64,000 nucleotides of DNA from Parvibaculaceae bacterium Mf 1.05b.01. GTDB taxonomy: Bacteria > Pseudomonadota > Alphaproteobacteria > Parvibaculales > Parvibaculaceae. Below, one piece after another: positions 25,181-51,834 of this stretch. Under the pieces are notes generated by a model. The model did not search any database and was not told where the DNA came from. It saw only the letters and a program-made list of their open reading frames with translations. Positions within the stretch are counted from its first letter, which is position 1; each line of letters starts with the position of its first letter. Location of the stretch: assembly GCA_000509225.1 (NCBI GenBank), contig BAOK01000001.1:868001-932000 (forward strand), given 5' to 3'. Both the position numbers and the translations under genes were made by a program.

Positions 25181-25597
25181 ATGGCTACGAGACCTAAAGC
25201 GAAGAAAAAGGCTGCGCCTAAACGCAAAGCCGCGAAGAAAAAAGTTGCCAAGAAGAAGGCAGCTCCTAAGCGGAAAGCCGCGAAGAAGAAAGTCGCAAAG
25301 AAAAAAGCAGCTCCTAAGCGGAAAGCCGCGAAGAAGAAAGTTGCTAAGAAGAAAACTGCCAAGAAGAAAGTCGCTAAGAAGAAAACTGCCAAGAAGAAGG
25401 CAGCTCCTAAGCGCAAGGCAGCTAAGAAGAAAACTGCCAAGAAGAAAGTCGCTAAGAAGAAAACTGCTAAAAAGAAAGCAGCTCCTAAGCGCAAGGCAGC
25501 TAAGAAGAAAGTCGCTAAGAAGAAAACTGCCAAGAAGAAGGCAGCTCCTAAGCGCAAAGCCGCTAAGCGGAAAGCACCAGCTCGTAAGAGACGGTAA
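25181..25597 (+). CDS. Histone H1-like lysine/alanine repeat protein
   Basis: A 138-residue protein built almost only of Lys, Ala, Val, Thr, Pro and Arg. The units are AAKKKVAKKK, TAKKK and AAPKRK repeated to the end, finishing with PARKRR. It resembles the Hc1/Hc2-type bacterial histone-like proteins and the basic tails of bacterial H1 homologues, so nucleoid binding is a reasonable inference. There is no globular domain. GAGG lies 6 bases before the ATG. The long hydrophobic frame on the opposite strand is an artefact of reversed Lys codons. A 9-bp hairpin follows 7 bases after the stop. Confidence 0.82.
   Translation: MATRPKAKKKAAPKRKAAKKKVAKKKAAPKRKAAKKKVAKKKAAPKRKAAKKKVAKKKTAKKKVAKKKTAKKKAAPKRKAAKKKTAKKKVAKKKTAKKKAAPKRKAAKKKVAKKKTAKKKAAPKRKAAKRKAPARKRR
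25191..25590 (+). repeat. Tandem DNA repeats inside the histone-like gene
   Basis: Degenerate tandem units of 15-45 bases built from AAGAAGAAA, GCTCCTAAGCG and GCTAAGAAGAAA. Several longer blocks, such as the one starting at 25334, recur almost unchanged near 25430 and 25500. Such repeats can change copy number by slippage in multiples of three. Confidence 0.85.
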
Positions 25598-45045: not shown

Positions 45046-45087
45046 ATTTTATGATCAGCGCCCAAAACGGGCGAAATGGAGAAAAGT

Positions 45088-45726
45088 ATGTCTATCCTTT
45101 CAAAGAAGGGGCGCATTGACCGGCGTCCAAAAAACTATTCTGGTGCGGTTGTTGCGGCTATCGGGACTTGCCTTATCGCGACGTCCGGCTTCGCGGCTTC
45201 CCATGGCGACCATGACCACGATCATGATGCAGAGAAGCGTCACGCCGAGTCGCATGAGCATGGTGCGGCTGAGCTGGCCATTGCCTTGGACGGCAATCAG
45301 CTCATTGCTGAATTCACGTCGCCTGGTATGAATATTGTCGGGTTCGAGCATGAAGCGAGGGATGCCGACGAAATTGCAGCGGTAAAGGCGGCTGTTGAAA
45401 AGCTTGGAATGGGCGCGGAGCTGATTGAACTCAAAGGGGCAGGCTGCTCTCTCTCGGAGGCCGATGTTGAGGCAGAGGGGCTGCTCGCCGAAGTTCACGA
45501 AGGTGACCATCACGAAGGTGACCATCATGAAGATGATGAGACACATGCTGAATTCGAAGCGAAGTACAGTTTTGATTGCACAGCACCTGGTCGGCTCTCC
45601 GGGGTTTCAGTCGGCTTTTTCGAACAATGGCCAGGTATCGAGGAAATCAAAGTGGTCTTCTTGAGCGATGACCATCAGATTTCCGCTGAGCTCACCGGAG
45701 CCAATCCGGCGTTTGAGGCAAAATAG
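45088..45726 (+). CDS. His-rich periplasmic DUF2796 protein (ZrgA-like)
   Basis: A 212-residue exported protein. A hydrophobic signal (AVVAAIGTCLIATSGFA) is followed by a His/Asp cluster, SHGDHDHDHDAEKRHAESHEHG. The DUF2796 core is AAELAIALDGNQLIAEFTSPGMNIVGFEHEA, with a second cluster HEGDHHEGDHHEDDETH inserted and the pair SFDCTAPGRL. DUF2796 protein ZrgA of Vibrio cholerae works with an ABC system in zinc uptake. Zinc capture is therefore inferred. ATG 45088 has GGAG 7 bases before it. The ATPase starts directly after its stop. Confidence 0.85.
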   Translation: MSILSKKGRIDRRPKNYSGAVVAAIGTCLIATSGFAASHGDHDHDHDAEKRHAESHEHGAAELAIALDGNQLIAEFTSPGMNIVGFEHEARDADEIAAVKAAVEKLGMGAELIELKGAGCSLSEADVEAEGLLAEVHEGDHHEGDHHEDDETHAEFEAKYSFDCTAPGRLSGVSVGFFEQWPGIEEIKVVFLSDDHQISAELTGANPAFEAK

Positions 45727-46467
45727 ATGGATGCTGGTCGAGCAGAGGCGAGTCAAAAGACAGCCGACAGCGCAGTGGTTATCAATGACCTCCTGTTTTC
45801 GTGGGATGACAACGATACGCCCTTGCTCGACATCGCGGCACTAAGCATTGACCGTGGAGAACGCGTGTTCCTCCACGGACCCAGCGGCAGCGGCAAGAGT
45901 ACCTTGCTTGGTCTGCTTGGCGGTGTTCTTTTGCCTGGGGCTGGCGGTCTGAGTGTTTTGGGGCAGGATCTCGCAAGCCTTAGTGGTCGTGCACGCGATC
46001 GCTTCCGGGCGGATCATCTCGGCATCATTTTTCAGATGTTTAATCTCCTGCCCTATCTCTCGGTGAGGGACAATGTGGCTTTATCCTGCCGCTTTTCGAG
46101 TGCACGCGCCGCGCGGGCTGAGGAGGCAGGGGGTGTTGGATCTGAAACTAACCGGCTTCTCAAGAACCTTGGACTGCCGGACGTGGCGATGGAACGTCCG
46201 GTGACTGATTTGAGCGTCGGGCAGCAGCAGCGCGTTGCCGTGGCGCGTGCTCTGATTGGCCAGCCAGAGCTCATTATCGCCGATGAGCCGACATCTGCCC
46301 TCGATGCAGATCATCGAAACATCTTCATCGATCTGTTATCCGCGGAGTGTTCTGCGAGCGGTGCGACCCTGGTTTTTGTCAGCCACGACCTGTCCTTGGC
46401 CAAGACCTTTGATCGGATAGTGGCGCTCACCGAGATTAACCGGGCCGACATGAAGGAGGCCGTCTGA
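45727..46467 (+). CDS. ABC transporter ATPase (ZrgB/LolD/MacB-type)
   Basis: A 246-residue nucleotide-binding protein. Walker A is GPSGSGKSTLLGLLGG (51-66), signature LSVGQQQRVAVARAL and Walker B LIIADEPTSALDADH. The Q-loop is FQMFNLLPYLSV, and the H-loop His is in VSHDLSLA. The order matches the LolD/MacB (MacB-ABC) branch that pairs with FtsX-like permeases, such as the one encoded immediately downstream (1-base overlap of stop and start). It probably energises zinc or ligand movement across the inner membrane. Confidence 0.92.
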   Translation: MDAGRAEASQKTADSAVVINDLLFSWDDNDTPLLDIAALSIDRGERVFLHGPSGSGKSTLLGLLGGVLLPGAGGLSVLGQDLASLSGRARDRFRADHLGIIFQMFNLLPYLSVRDNVALSCRFSSARAARAEEAGGVGSETNRLLKNLGLPDVAMERPVTDLSVGQQQRVAVARALIGQPELIIADEPTSALDADHRNIFIDLLSAECSASGATLVFVSHDLSLAKTFDRIVALTEINRADMKEAV

Positions 46468-47738
46468 TGCCCCTGTCCGCCCTTTTGCTCATCGCCTATC
46501 GCAGCGTTGTGAACCGACGCGTCACAGCGTTGCTGACGGTGTTTTCGATCGCCCTCAGTGTCACTTTGTTTCTGGGTGTTGAAAAGATCCGATCCGGCGC
46601 CCAAACAGGGTTTTCCAATACCGTTTCGGGGACCGACCTGATCGTGGGCGCTCGCAGCGGCGCACTCAACCTCTTGCTTTATTCCGTCTTCCGGATTGGT
46701 GATGCCACCAACAATGTGACCTGGGAGAGCTATGAAGATATCGCCTCCCGGCCAGAAATCGCCTGGGCGGTGCCCATTTCTCTTGGCGATAGTCATCGTG
46801 GTTTTCGGGTGATGGGCACGACGGCGGCCTATTTTGATCACTACCGAACCGGCGACAAACAGAACCTGCAGTTTGCTGCAGGACAGCGGTTCGAAGACAT
46901 ATTTGATGTGGTTCTGGGGTCGGATGTCGCATCAGAACTCGCCTATGGGCTTGGCGAGGAAATTGTCATTGCCCACGGTATTGGGTCAGTCAGTTTTGCC
47001 AAACATGACAATCTTCCCTTTCGGGTTGTGGGTATTCTGGAGAGGACGGGTACGCCTGTTGACCGAACCGTCCATGTCAAACTTGAAGGGATTGAGGCCA
47101 TCCATCTAGGCTGGTCGGGCGGGGCGGCTCCCATAGGCAGCCGGGCACCCAGCGCCACTGATGTCCGTGCAGCGGATCTCGATCCAACGTCGGTGACGGC
47201 GGTGTTCCTGGGGCTGAACAGCCGAATTGCCATTCTCACGCTTCAAAGGGACATCAACACTTATAATGAAGAAGCTCTGATGGCGATCATCCCCGGTGTG
47301 GCCTTGACCCAGCTTTGGGACGTGGTGGGTGTGGCTGAATTGGCTTTGAGTGCAATCGCGACTTTCGTGATTTTGACGGGTCTTCTCGGACTTATGACAA
47401 ATGTGCTTACCAGCCTCAATGAACGCCGTCGGGAGATGGCAATTCTGCGGTCGGTTGGGGCAGGGGCGAGACATGTTGCTCTCCTGCTCATAAGTGAATC
47501 CGCATTTCTCGCCAGTGCAGGTGCCTTATTGGGGCTTTGCCTGGTACAGATCCTGCTCGCGGCGGCAGGACCGATTATAGTTGAGGCAACGGGGGTCTTT
47601 GTCGGTGGTCTCAGTGTTACCTCATTTGATCTTATAACTGTGGGTGCTGTGATAGGCTTTGCGGCGGTCCTCGCCGGCTTCCCAGCATGGCGGGCTTACC
47701 GTCAGTCCCTGTCAGACGGACTGACCATCCGCGTCTAA
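46467..47738 (+). CDS. ABC transporter permease, FtsX/MacB-like
   Basis: A 423-residue inner-membrane subunit. One N-terminal helix (LTVFSIALSVTLFLGV) precedes a large periplasmic domain (about residues 40-280). Three more helices follow, with FtsX-type signature TNVLTSLNERRREMAILRSVGAGARHVALLLISE. Two-component MacB-type systems usually act on periplasmic substrates. In the Zrg arrangement this is the permease. Stop of the ATPase and start of this gene overlap in TGATG-like order. Confidence 0.9.
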   Translation: MPLSALLLIAYRSVVNRRVTALLTVFSIALSVTLFLGVEKIRSGAQTGFSNTVSGTDLIVGARSGALNLLLYSVFRIGDATNNVTWESYEDIASRPEIAWAVPISLGDSHRGFRVMGTTAAYFDHYRTGDKQNLQFAAGQRFEDIFDVVLGSDVASELAYGLGEEIVIAHGIGSVSFAKHDNLPFRVVGILERTGTPVDRTVHVKLEGIEAIHLGWSGGAAPIGSRAPSATDVRAADLDPTSVTAVFLGLNSRIAILTLQRDINTYNEEALMAIIPGVALTQLWDVVGVAELALSAIATFVILTGLLGLMTNVLTSLNERRREMAILRSVGAGARHVALLLISESAFLASAGALLGLCLVQILLAAAGPIIVEATGVFVGGLSVTSFDLITVGAVIGFAAVLAGFPAWRAYRQSLSDGLTIRV

Positions 47739-47749
47739 GGAGCGATGTT

Positions 47750-48343
47750 ATGAAGTTGCTATTGGCTGTTTTTGTGGCTCTTGGCTTTAGCTCGGTCGGG
47801 TCTTTTGTATCAGCCGCAGAGCCTGAGGTGATCTATTGGGAGGATCTCATGCCTCCTGAAGGCTTAAAGGCGCTGGAGGAGGCCTATGCTGCCGCCGCGG
47901 CAGCAGCCGAGCCGCTTGGTGAAGTGGACCAGGCGCAGTCTGATATCTCGGACTTGCCAGAAGATGGTGACATTGTTCTCGGCGCTGACCCGGATGATCC
48001 GACAGGTAGCAAACCGCCAGCCACACAATTTGGAACCTTTGACGTGGTGGAAGAGCTCAATGGGAAAACCATCCGTATCCCTGGGTTTATGGTGCCGTTT
48101 GATATTAATCAGATGAATGAAGTTACCGAATTCCTGTTGGTTCCCTATTTCGGTGCCTGTATCCATGTGCCTCCGCCGCCGCCCAATCAGATTGTCTACG
48201 TGACGGCCGAAGACGCCGTTCCGTTTGGTTGGGAACCCGTATGGCTTGAAGGTGTTCTGGAGACCAAGACCCACATGAACCAGCTTGGCAGTGCGGCATA
48301 TACGCTTAACTTGACCAAAATGGAGCCATATGCAGATGGCTAA
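47750..48343 (+). CDS. DUF3299 exported protein (ZrgE-like)
   Basis: A 197-residue protein with signal peptide (MKLLLAVFVALGFSSVGSFVSA). EPEVIYWEDLMPPEG opens the mature part, then KTIRIPGFMVPFD, FLLVPYFGACIHVPPPPPNQIVYV and a final WLEGVLETKTHMN. These are the DUF3299 hallmarks, with Cys and His in the GACIH motif a likely metal site. The same family is part of the V. cholerae zrg cluster. An AAGGAG site is well placed. No terminator was recognised behind it. Confidence 0.88.
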   Translation: MKLLLAVFVALGFSSVGSFVSAAEPEVIYWEDLMPPEGLKALEEAYAAAAAAAEPLGEVDQAQSDISDLPEDGDIVLGADPDDPTGSKPPATQFGTFDVVEELNGKTIRIPGFMVPFDINQMNEVTEFLLVPYFGACIHVPPPPPNQIVYVTAEDAVPFGWEPVWLEGVLETKTHMNQLGSAAYTLNLTKMEPYADG

Positions 48344-48449
48344 TAACCAAAGTTCTAGCTTTTTCAGTGGGTTGGCGGTCGAACCTTAATAAAATATTGA
48401 GTCCATTTCCCTAGTCTCTGCGCAGTAAATGCATGGAAGGCAGGCGGCG

Positions 48450-49202
48450 ATGGACGCTCCATTGGCTGTAGGAAAGGGAAGGATTGGGGCGCTGGTGCAC
48501 CGTTTGGTTGTGCCGGGAGAGCGCGCCTGTTTGCCTGGACCTGCCTGGGCGCTTGGTATTTATACCGTGACCTTGGTGCCGGTGCTCTTATTGCTGACTG
48601 CTGCCTGGTTTCAGCCATTTGTGCCCATTGGCGAGCTGATGCGCGATAGTTTGCTTGTAGCGGAAGTCTCGGATGATTGCTGCCATATCTATTATGGCGC
48701 GATCTCCAACATAGGTGTGTTGTTGTGGGCAGCTGCAACAGCAATTCTGTTTTTCACCGCACTTGTTGTCGCACTGATCGGCGGGCTGGAACACCGTCAT
48801 TCCATTGTTCAATTTTCCCTGGCAGGCTTTCTTACGATGCTTCTGTGCATCGATGATTTCTTCCTCGTGCACGATATTATTCTGCCAAAACTTGGCTACT
48901 CCGAAACGCTTGCCTACATGGTCTATGCGTCTTTCGCGGCCCTCTATGTATGGTATGCGCGGGCTGAATTTCTTGCCGCGCGGTGGCTGATGTTTCTGCT
49001 CAGCGTGGGGAGCCTCGCGCTTAGTGTGAAGATCGATGTCTTCATGAACTACGACAACGACCTCCGTCTTTTCATCGAAGACGGCGCGAAACTGATCGGC
49101 ATTGCAGCCTGGCTCAGTTTTCATGCAGAAGCGGCAGCGTGCACCATACAGCGGTTAGGTGATGTGGGCAGAACGCCAGCAGATCGGCGTCAATTCACAT
49201 GA
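48450..49202 (+). CDS. Six-helix membrane protein of unknown function
   Basis: A 250-residue polytopic protein with six hydrophobic segments (about 35-55, 85-112, 121-135, 152-170, 178-195 and 212-230). Acidic and His residues lie at helix ends: SDDCCH (74-79), IDDFFLVHD (134-142), KID (194-196), DG (211-212) and H225. This spacing suggests a buried metal or proton site, but I do not recognise a family with known activity. ATG 48450 follows GGAAGGCAGG better than the in-frame ATG at 48429. The stop overlaps the ATP-grasp start by 4 bases. Confidence 0.7.
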   Translation: MDAPLAVGKGRIGALVHRLVVPGERACLPGPAWALGIYTVTLVPVLLLLTAAWFQPFVPIGELMRDSLLVAEVSDDCCHIYYGAISNIGVLLWAAATAILFFTALVVALIGGLEHRHSIVQFSLAGFLTMLLCIDDFFLVHDIILPKLGYSETLAYMVYASFAALYVWYARAEFLAARWLMFLLSVGSLALSVKIDVFMNYDNDLRLFIEDGAKLIGIAAWLSFHAEAAACTIQRLGDVGRTPADRRQFT

Positions 49203-50509
49203 TATCAGTCGCGACCAAACTTTTTTCTGACGTTAAAGACAGCCGGCCTTCGATCCTTTTACTGGGGAACTATCGGCCTGCGCTTGCGGTAGCGCGCGTG
49301 CTCCGGGAAGCTGGATATCGGATCGTTATGGGCAAGCGCGGCGGGGAGGGTTTTTGCGAATATTCCCGCTTTATCGAAGAGGCCTGGGACCACCCGCCGG
49401 TCGAGATAGATGTTGTTGGATTGCAGGTAGCCCTTACGAAATTTCTTTCCGAACGGGAGGATATCCAATTCGTTCTGCCGATTAGCGAACCGTTTGTGAT
49501 GTTCTTTGCGGAGCGCATGCCGAAATTACCGGGTGGTGCGACACTCGTGTCGCCAAGGGCAGACCTTGTGAAGACCTGCGCGGACAAGGTCACGATGCTT
49601 TATACCGCTGTTGAGGAAGACGTGCCTGTTTTGCCATGCGCTGTTCTTGTCGCAAACAGCGACAATGCCGCGCTGGGCCGAGAGGTGGGCCTCCCCATCG
49701 TTGCGAGGCCCTTGTCACCGGGCGCCAAATTCAACGAGAAGAAGGCGGTTATTATTGACAGCTGGCCTGACTATGAACAGTTCATTTCCGACTGGTGCAA
49801 ACCGGACTTTCCAATTCTCATTCAGCGTCAAGCCGTTGGCCCACGGGTCAACGTGTTCTTTACGGCCCGTAACGGTAAGCTGATCAACAATCTTCAAACA
49901 TATATACGCCGAACCGATTCATTGGATGGAACGGGGTATGCCGTTGATGGGGTGACTGTCGCGACATCTGCGCCGCTTTTAGAGGATTGCGAGAAGCTGG
50001 CAAAGGCACTCGACTATACAGGCATCGGCCTTGCACAATTTATCGTTGACCCCAAAACGGGTGAGAGATGCTTTTTGGAGCTTAATCCCCGGATCGCAGG
50101 CAGCCAGGCGATCACAGAGCAAATGGGTTTTGAGATGAGCCGCATCGCCATTGATCTTGCGCTTGGGCTTGACCCTGAGCCGCCCAAACGGGTGCGGGGA
50201 ATTCGGTCTGGTTTCAGATATGCCTGGGTCTATGGGGACATTAGAGGCTTAAGGTTTGCGTTGAAGCGAGGAGAGATCGGCTTTGGCGGAGCAGTGCGTT
50301 GGGCGCTAAAAACTTTTTGGACTGCGCTGTGGGCTGACCATCATATGACTTGGGCGATACATGATCCGGCTCCAAGTTTAATGTTGTTTGCGCGGCAATT
50401 GTTCCCATCACTTGAACGGCTTTCAGGGACCTCTGTTAAGGAGGGGCCGTCGCATGAGGTCGACCTCCCAGAGATGGCGGGTGAGGATCCTCCAGCGAGG
50501 GGAATATGA
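49199..50509 (+). CDS. ATP-grasp ligase-like protein
   Basis: A 436-residue protein. SILLLGNYRPALAVARVLREAGYRIVMG is the N-terminal pre-ATP-grasp fold. KVTMLYTAVEEDVPVLP and GLPIVARPLSPGAKFN lie in the ATP lid, and YTGIGLAQFIVDPKTGERCFLELNPRIAGS gives the Mg-binding ExNPR motif. Related carboxylate-amine ligases join a carboxyl group to an amine or thiol. A C-terminal extension of about 90 residues (from VRGIRSGFRYAWVYGD) is unique and partly hydrophobic. It is coupled by ATGA overlaps to a membrane protein and a flippase. Confidence 0.85.
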   Translation: MISVATKLFSDVKDSRPSILLLGNYRPALAVARVLREAGYRIVMGKRGGEGFCEYSRFIEEAWDHPPVEIDVVGLQVALTKFLSEREDIQFVLPISEPFVMFFAERMPKLPGGATLVSPRADLVKTCADKVTMLYTAVEEDVPVLPCAVLVANSDNAALGREVGLPIVARPLSPGAKFNEKKAVIIDSWPDYEQFISDWCKPDFPILIQRQAVGPRVNVFFTARNGKLINNLQTYIRRTDSLDGTGYAVDGVTVATSAPLLEDCEKLAKALDYTGIGLAQFIVDPKTGERCFLELNPRIAGSQAITEQMGFEMSRIAIDLALGLDPEPPKRVRGIRSGFRYAWVYGDIRGLRFALKRGEIGFGGAVRWALKTFWTALWADHHMTWAIHDPAPSLMLFARQLFPSLERLSGTSVKEGPSHEVDLPEMAGEDPPARGI

Positions 50510-51834
50510 AACGCAACCCAACCGTTTCGGATTTTCTCAAGACATCGAGCTTTTTGATGCTGGCCCGTATTGGGGGTACGGGGCTCGGGTTTCTTATTCA
50601 GCTCGCCTTGGTTCGGCTCATGGCCCCGACGGACTACGGCATTTATGTCGTTGCTCTGTCGTTGGCTGCGGTGCTCTCGATTTTTTGCGCATTTGGACTG
50701 CCGTCGGTGACTGCCCGATTTGTTGCGGGCTATCAGGAGGCCGGTGACAAAGCACGGATCGCGGGCTTCATTCGGAATGCAAAACACCATATCGCGATGA
50801 CGGCGTTCGTTTTCGGACTGATTGGACTTGTTTTTTTGTGGAGCGGGCTTATAGACAGAGAGTACCAGATACCTTTGATGCTTGCCTGCGTTATGGCACC
50901 GGCGCTCGCCGCCATGCGGTTCGGGGGTGCTTTGTCGAACACAGCGCGCAGGTTCTATCTGACCTACCTTCCAGACGTGACCTTCAGACCGCTTCTTCTG
51001 GTTGGTGGCCTTCTTGGGATCTACGTCCTCGCAGTTCCAATGACCACCACCAATGTTCTGTTGGTTCATCTTGTGGTGGCAATGGCAGCCTCGTGTTTGC
51101 TCTGGTTTGTTTTGCGGCCACGTCGTCAATTCCGATTGGGAGGTGTTCAACCCGTTTCAGAACACAAAGCCTGGCGTCAGGCTGCGACGCCGATGATATT
51201 TGTCACGTTGCTCACATCCCTTTTGGCTGACATTGATGTTTTGTTGTTAAGTACACTCCTTCCGGCCGAACAGGTGGGCATCTTCAGCGTTTGCTTGAGG
51301 ATCATGTTGTTAGTTGAGTTCGGCATCCAGACAGTCTTTCAGATGAGCATGCCGGATTTCGCAGAGGCACAAGCCCGCAACGAAACCCTTCTGATGCATG
51401 CTGCGATGCGGCGCGCTCAGCATGCGACACTTGCGTTTACACTGTTAGCTTTCTGCGGCGTGGCGGTATTCGGTGAAGGGATCCTTCTGCTGTTTGGGGA
51501 AAGGTTTACGGTCGGTGCTGATGCACTTGTGTTTTTGATCGGTGGACAGGTTCTCCGGTCACTTGTCGGCCCGGTTACGCAGGTGCTAACGGTTGTTGGC
51601 GCCCAAATGCGCAGCCTTATGAGCTACGGAATTGCGCTTTTGGTTTTGATTGCTGGCAATGCCTTTTTTGTTCCGCTGATCGGCGTTGAAGGGGCTGCTG
51701 CTGTTCTTTCATTCTCTATGGTGCTTGGCGCGCTGCTGCAGGCTCAGGCCGTCTTGCAGAAGACGGGGCATTCAGTGCTGAGTACGCTTTTCTCGCTACC
51801 AGTCACTCAGGAACAATTGGCAGACAGTCGCTAA
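50506..51834 (+). CDS. Wzx/MATE-like polysaccharide flippase
   Basis: A 442-residue integral membrane protein with about 12-14 helices. VSDFLKTSSFLMLARIGGTGLGFLIQLALVRLMAPTDYGIYVVALSLAAVLSIF at the N terminus is typical of polysaccharide biosynthesis (Wzx) flippases. Such proteins move lipid-linked sugars or similar amphiphiles outward across the inner membrane. The start overlaps the ATP-grasp stop by 4 bases, so the product of the ligase may be part of the lipid-linked cargo. No glycosyltransferase is in the unit itself. The nearest one (41283) is 9 kb away. Confidence 0.88.
   Translation: MKRNPTVSDFLKTSSFLMLARIGGTGLGFLIQLALVRLMAPTDYGIYVVALSLAAVLSIFCAFGLPSVTARFVAGYQEAGDKARIAGFIRNAKHHIAMTAFVFGLIGLVFLWSGLIDREYQIPLMLACVMAPALAAMRFGGALSNTARRFYLTYLPDVTFRPLLLVGGLLGIYVLAVPMTTTNVLLVHLVVAMAASCLLWFVLRPRRQFRLGGVQPVSEHKAWRQAATPMIFVTLLTSLLADIDVLLLSTLLPAEQVGIFSVCLRIMLLVEFGIQTVFQMSMPDFAEAQARNETLLMHAAMRRAQHATLAFTLLAFCGVAVFGEGILLLFGERFTVGADALVFLIGGQVLRSLVGPVTQVLTVVGAQMRSLMSYGIALLVLIAGNAFFVPLIGVEGAAAVLSFSMVLGALLQAQAVLQKTGHSVLSTLFSLPVTQEQLADSR

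Follow-up and report, generated by a model that had tools for sequence, protein, structure and literature searches.

A conserved membrane protein, ATP-grasp ligase and Wzx-type flippase trio as a candidate satellite module of a surface-glycan pathway

What does a flippase for lipid-linked products do in a gene unit that holds neither a glycosyltransferase nor a polymerase? The question is raised by three plus-strand genes at positions 48450-51834 of a 64,000-nt window, the whole stretch of alphaproteobacterial DNA that was analyzed. Gene 1 (48450..49202, + strand) encodes a polytopic inner-membrane protein of 250 aa, gene 2 (49199..50509, + strand) an ATP-grasp ligase of 436 aa and gene 3 (50506..51834, + strand) a Wzx-type flippase of 442 aa from the MOP superfamily. 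The original prediction interpreted them as one unit that could build and export an aminoacylated or peptidyl lipid in an undescribed envelope system. We confirmed that the unit lacks a glycosyltransferase and a polymerase.

The predicted gene layout was borne out. ATGA overlaps on the plus strand join the membrane protein gene to the ligase gene (49199..49202) and the ligase gene to the flippase gene (50506..50509). The boundary placed at 48450 is right, because this start of gene 1 is conserved across the genus; an upstream ATG at 48429 is not and was rejected. The intact trio is present in five of the seven genomes of the genus, between the same flanks, preceded by DUF3299/ABC genes and followed by metallo-hydrolase genes (for G004, this context lies at the end of a short contig), and is missing from G005 and G006. 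G001 and G002 carry an additional enoyl-CoA-hydratase-like gene after the flippase. Both overlaps persist in all five trio-bearing genomes, the second being ATGA in G000 to G003 and TGATG, not the four-base ATGA, in G004. Since they have been kept in five genomes despite synonymous sites near saturation across the genus comparison, these stop/start overlaps are not due to chance. All three genes are under purifying selection (dN/dS ~0.05-0.15, host versus G003 and G002). In GC and GC3, the trio resembles the neighboring genes and thus gives no sign of recent import; a foreign origin was rejected, as was an anti-phage defense system, with no PADLOC model matching any of the three proteins. A promoter scan yielded nothing informative. 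The trio is a real, conserved module, and the view that its genes act as one envelope unit containing a ligase and a lipid-linked-product flippase is supported. Two further features of the window were recorded. Upstream of the trio, a single conserved run (45076-48343) encodes a His-rich secreted protein, an ABC ATPase and permease and a DUF3299 protein, a set that looks like metal-related export, and positions 25202-25576 hold tandem lysine/alanine-type repeats with 15-, 48- and 78-base periods, histone-H1-like in one frame.

Gene 2 proved to be an ATP-grasp protein, as predicted, matching PF02786 at 1.4e-9 (38.2 bits versus a cut-off of 19.8) and possessing residues expected to bind nucleotide and metal (K130, K182, Q280, E294, N296 and R298). 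In a profile alignment, Q280, E294 and N296 align with the Gln, Glu and Asn of both halves of carbamoyl-phosphate synthetase, where these residues are metal ligands; judged by this alignment, the ATP-grasp metal triad of the ligase is intact. Gln at position 280 marks a subclade comprising the genus, Robiginitomaculum antarcticum and G117, while more distant relatives have Glu. The domain originally described as an extra C-terminal one is not extra: the extension carries an HDPxP motif, and DPxP recurs in nine of the ten relatives compared, archaeal and Firmicute proteins included, which makes the extension characteristic of the family. The ‘carbamoyl phosphate synthase-like’ NCBIfam models PRK12767 and PRK06849 match the ligase weakly over its ATP-grasp region, and the C-terminal DPxP is common to the relatives, which sit in glycan loci. 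However, the trio ligase falls far under the curated cut-offs and thus outside either equivalog (36 versus 406 and 31.7 versus 218, respectively), and its subclade has Gln instead of Glu as first metal ligand. Weak ligase matches in frames of biotin-carboxylase or carbamoyl-phosphate synthetase size were treated as background, and an AlphaFold2 model of the ligase (pLDDT 40) was too poor for use.

Surface-glycan genes surround nearly every ligase relative with readable surroundings. In R. antarcticum, a convergent relative (27% identity, BLAST) lies beside a membrane-protein/Wzx pair inside a glycan locus, with a PF13480 GNAT, a WecG/TagA/CpsF glycosyltransferase (2.1e-60) and an FkbM methyltransferase as neighbors. 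In G040, the relative is part of an exosortase-A (XrtA) EPS locus, beside TIGR03098 (759 bits) and TIGR03100 (340 bits) proteins and ~8 kb from a Wzx gene; unlike in such loci, no exosortase-associated genes were seen near the trio. The G040 protein is fused to a Wzb-type low-molecular-weight tyrosine phosphatase, and the G740 relative shows the same Wzb-like fusion. These C-terminal fusions, at L140:12623-14602 and L141:5951-7678, occur in two distant alphaproteobacteria. The glycan loci of R. antarcticum and G040 also have in common an alpha/alpha-toroid protein with a weak squalene-cyclase C-terminal match (L029:13531-14739 and L140:14676-15884, 34% identity), which adjoins the ATP-grasp gene in G040. 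Further afield, relatives lie near flippase, GNAT, deacetylase and nucleotide-sugar dehydrogenase genes (Haloprofundus), adjacent to a GNAT gene (Natronorubrum) and near two GT4 genes and a PIG-L deacetylase gene (Cytobacillus). At 20-26% identity, the haloarchaeal and Bacillus-type proteins are remote from the ligase, so their context is supporting rather than orthologous evidence. Surroundings were uninformative for Halocatena and for G117, where the contig ends.

The assignment of gene 3 as a Wzx-type flippase likewise held, with PF01943 above its cut-off (1.1e-12, 48.4 bits versus 28.2) and PF13440 at 1.2e-7. The protein is predicted to move a polyprenyl-linked unit. It resembles flippases of Wzx/Wzy pathways in matching the family over about two-thirds of its length and in grouping, at 97/97 support in our tree, as a related lineage with a clade of EPS-locus Wzx proteins, among them those of sister genera. 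Unlike them, it is encoded away from genes for a phosphoglycosyltransferase (PGT), glycosyltransferases, Wzy, Wzc and Wza and is translationally coupled to an ATP-grasp ligase. The customary but not obligatory Wzx neighbors (PGT, glycosyltransferase and Wzy genes) are absent from the unit and occur in loci elsewhere in the genome. A comparable arrangement appeared in G006, one of the trio-less genus members, where another ATP-grasp gene precedes another Wzx gene with a TTGA overlap (L148:3485-6171, contig G006:C8); the TTG start of this Wzx is a mechanical call, with an ATG four codons downstream. The G006 pair is unrelated to the trio, its ATP-grasp protein being 45% identical to the G740 protein and its Wzx 32% identical to a second host Wzx at C1:278 kb. 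It has no adjacent glycosyltransferase gene and flanks that are not glycan-like; NeuB/NeuA-like sugar genes lie ~9 kb away. The G006 assembly is contaminated and holds a near-identical copy of the Wzx end on a second contig. Because this pair is separate from the trio, the order of ATP-grasp followed by Wzx without adjacent glycosyltransferases seems to have arisen more than once.

With these data, we favor, as a moderately probable reading, that the trio serves a Wzx/Wzy-type surface-glycan pathway as a satellite module for modification and flipping. The closest competitor is the original idea of a self-contained system, with an ATP-grasp enzyme that attaches amino acids to a lipid or to a lipid-linked acceptor, a membrane protein that completes the product and a flippase that carries it out. 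Amide bonds are what ATP-grasp enzymes make, and both the trio and the G006 pair stand apart from glycosyltransferase genes, the trio also from a polymerase gene, as this proposal would have it. We nevertheless regard it as unlikely in view of the glycan genes around the ligase relatives, the grouping of the flippase with EPS-locus proteins and the lack within the unit of its own acyltransferase, carrier protein or PGT. More specifically, a stand-alone envelope pathway that works without any glycosyltransferase appears distinctly unlikely; in it, a new-family membrane enzyme and the ATP-grasp protein would assemble an aminoacyl- or peptidyl-polyprenyl (or lipid) compound for flipping by a Wzx-family protein. 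Surface-glycan tailoring is the likelier function. A separate system does not follow from the lack of glycosyltransferase genes nearby, since the host has a Wzc/Wza/PGT/Wzy locus without a Wzx gene ~160 kb away. That argument of the original prediction is accordingly not supported, as nearly all ligase relatives with readable surroundings sit among glycan genes and host glycan loci lack a local Wzx. An aminoacylated glycan intermediate stays conceivable, and a peptidyl lipid keeps a low probability.

This EPS locus (C2:1069000-1088900, L048) looks complete and encodes a deacetylase, two tandem GNATs, Wzc, Wza, a GT4 glycosyltransferase, a PGT and Wzy, with no Wzx within it. In the kinds of its parts, it is like the Caulobacter holdfast (hfs) system, which has a deacetylase, a GNAT acyltransferase, Wzc, Wza, a PGT and Wzy; we know of no counterpart of the trio among the Caulobacter hfs genes. 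HfsK and HfsH tailor the Caulobacter holdfast (PMC5362036). PGT genes of the host were located at C2:1.079 Mb, in the EPS locus, and at C2:1.801 Mb, in a larger O-antigen-type region. This second region, at C2:1.80-1.83 Mb, has its own Wzy gene, asparagine-synthase-like genes and ABC-transporter-like genes, and no Wzx was seen in it. A PF01943 search of the host genome returned the trio flippase and proteins at C1:414 kb and C1:278 kb, and PF13440 matched these three plus a MurJ-like protein at C1:104 kb, giving four MOP proteins. The C1:278 kb gene, on another contig (L051) and accompanied by a GNAT and a cupin-like gene, is the likely cognate of the C2:1.07 Mb EPS locus.

These loci bring up the possibility that the trio is an ordinary, displaced Wzx with tailoring genes that serves the EPS or the O-antigen-type locus, not an alternative Wzx. 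Neither locus shows a Wzx, and the trio protein is related to EPS-locus Wzx proteins. We nonetheless judge this account improbable. The Wzx found in the EPS locus of sister genera has its best host match in the C1:278 kb protein, not in that of the trio, and proteins of the C1:278 kb type are present throughout the genus. ABC-transporter-like genes are already present in the O-antigen-type region itself, and each of the two loci has a Wzy gene that is found in seven of seven genus members, including G005 and G006, which lack the trio. With a better EPS-locus ortholog at C1:278 kb and both Wzy genes genus-wide, the trio protein is best seen as an additional flippase, with the polymers of these loci as candidate partners. 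R. antarcticum likewise has an extra Wzx: the one linked to its membrane protein is paralogous (33%) to that encoded in the organism's own Wza/Wzc/Wzy/PGT locus. Orthology of the linked protein with the trio Wzx was rejected by the tree, with caution for long branches. Several findings also count against the satellite module reading. Both the O-antigen-type Wzy and the EPS locus are present in all seven genus members, two trio-less ones included, so that neither is tied to the trio as its partner; in addition, sister-genus EPS-locus Wzx proteins are nearest to the C1:278 kb protein and the membrane protein sometimes stands alone.

The predicted lack of a known family for the gene 1 product was upheld, with no match in Pfam, NCBIfam or the PDB. 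Across 11 members aligned, no Pfam or NCBIfam model matched more than one member, the matches being weak, and a profile search of the PDB found no chain. Fourteen positions, start Met included, are invariant in these members down to 20% identity: M1, D66, G83, S86, G89, G126, D135, D136, H141, S192, D196, E210, K214 and G217. The Asp/His cluster noted at the outset is therefore real (D135, D136, H141 and D196, with E210 and K214). The six helices originally proposed are plausible without being firmly shown, as hydropathy gives ~5-6 segments and an AlphaFold2 model from four sequences is of low confidence (pLDDT 64); a Foldseek search of the PDB with this model gave no E value better than 0.5, and no fold was assigned from it. 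The protein represents a conserved, unnamed family without a Pfam entry.

A single-sequence search for members of this family found none outside the genus among 146 relatives. Profile searches were positive for one additional genome, G370, among 337 of the class, and at the level of the phylum (399 genomes) for three with convincing matches, G674, G713 and G477. A G720 match (E = 6.5e-4) was left out of the count because the recovered open reading frame looked unrelated. Other carriers are plasmids of Palleronia, Sinorhizobium and Skermanella as well as R. antarcticum. In R. antarcticum, the membrane protein (35% identity) is joined by ATGA to its Wzx; on the Palleronia plasmid, it adjoins a flippase (PF13440, 1.7e-71) in a Wzz/PGT/glycosyltransferase locus. 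Its neighbor is a family-9 glycosyltransferase in G477 and an ABC exporter in Skermanella, and no glycan-like neighbor was recognized in G674, G713 or Sinorhizobium. Given that the R. antarcticum and trio Wzx proteins are not orthologous, the pairing of membrane protein and Wzx probably has more than one independent origin. The complete trio was found nowhere outside the genus in our searches. The original prediction had named rare co-occurrence in other genomes and a flippase serving a distant polysaccharide locus as findings that would speak against it, and both partly apply: the trio recurs in most genus members with its complete form confined to that one genus, and a polysaccharide locus lying at a distance is available to it as a partner. 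Could the three genes then be unrelated neighbors, with the membrane protein and ligase not acting with the flippase? The restriction to one genus would fit, as would the solo membrane proteins, without trio partners, of G370, G674, G713 and Sinorhizobium. Such chance adjacency is very unlikely, as the overlaps survived near-saturating synonymous divergence, the membrane protein is separately paired with other Wzx proteins in R. antarcticum and Palleronia, and another ATP-grasp protein is paired with another Wzx in G006. It is highly improbable that the membrane protein is a Lipocone/VanZ-type head-group enzyme acting on a polyprenyl-linked intermediate: for that superfamily, an action on head groups of polyprenyl lipids or phospholipids has been proposed, EPS contexts included (PMC12419801), and the membrane protein does have a conserved polar cluster, but none of the 11 members has a relevant Pfam match, hhalign against the single sequence YjdF (DUF2238, Wok family) gives 0.2% probability, and the order and identity of the invariant residues are unlike the described His/Glu/Asp pattern, so that membership (VanZ, DUF2238/Wok) was not supported.

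As a satellite module of a glycan pathway, the trio might work as follows. The cytoplasmic ATP-grasp enzyme would use ATP and Mg to convert a carboxylate into an acyl phosphate and join it to an amine, decorating a glycan repeat unit or precursor, for example by attaching an amino acid to a uronic acid or by acylating an amino sugar. The co-translated Wzx would then flip the modified polyprenyl-linked unit into the periplasm. The membrane protein, with its Asp/His/Glu/Lys cluster in or near the helices, may act on the lipid-linked unit or assist the flippase, and polymerization and export would fall to a Wzy/Wzc/Wza machine encoded elsewhere on the chromosome. Gene coupling, conservation, family assignments, the metal triad and the glycan context of relatives were observed; the substrates, the direction, what the membrane protein does and which locus is the partner are inferred. 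As far as the literature searched shows, the system is also undescribed, as originally proposed. No paper in the open-access literature searched contained both ‘ATP-grasp’ and ‘wzx’, and ‘ATP-grasp’ and ‘exosortase’ co-occurred in one, a lipid review with ATP-grasp in its reference list only; as coverage was limited, this absence is weak evidence.

If the satellite module reading is correct, it would tie a widely scattered, uncharacterized ATP-grasp clade to the tailoring of repeat units just before flipping. It would also suggest that bacteria carry spare Wzx cassettes through which a modified repeat unit enters a shared polymerization and export machine. The membrane protein family, paired with unrelated flippases, offers a lead toward an unknown step in glycan assembly.
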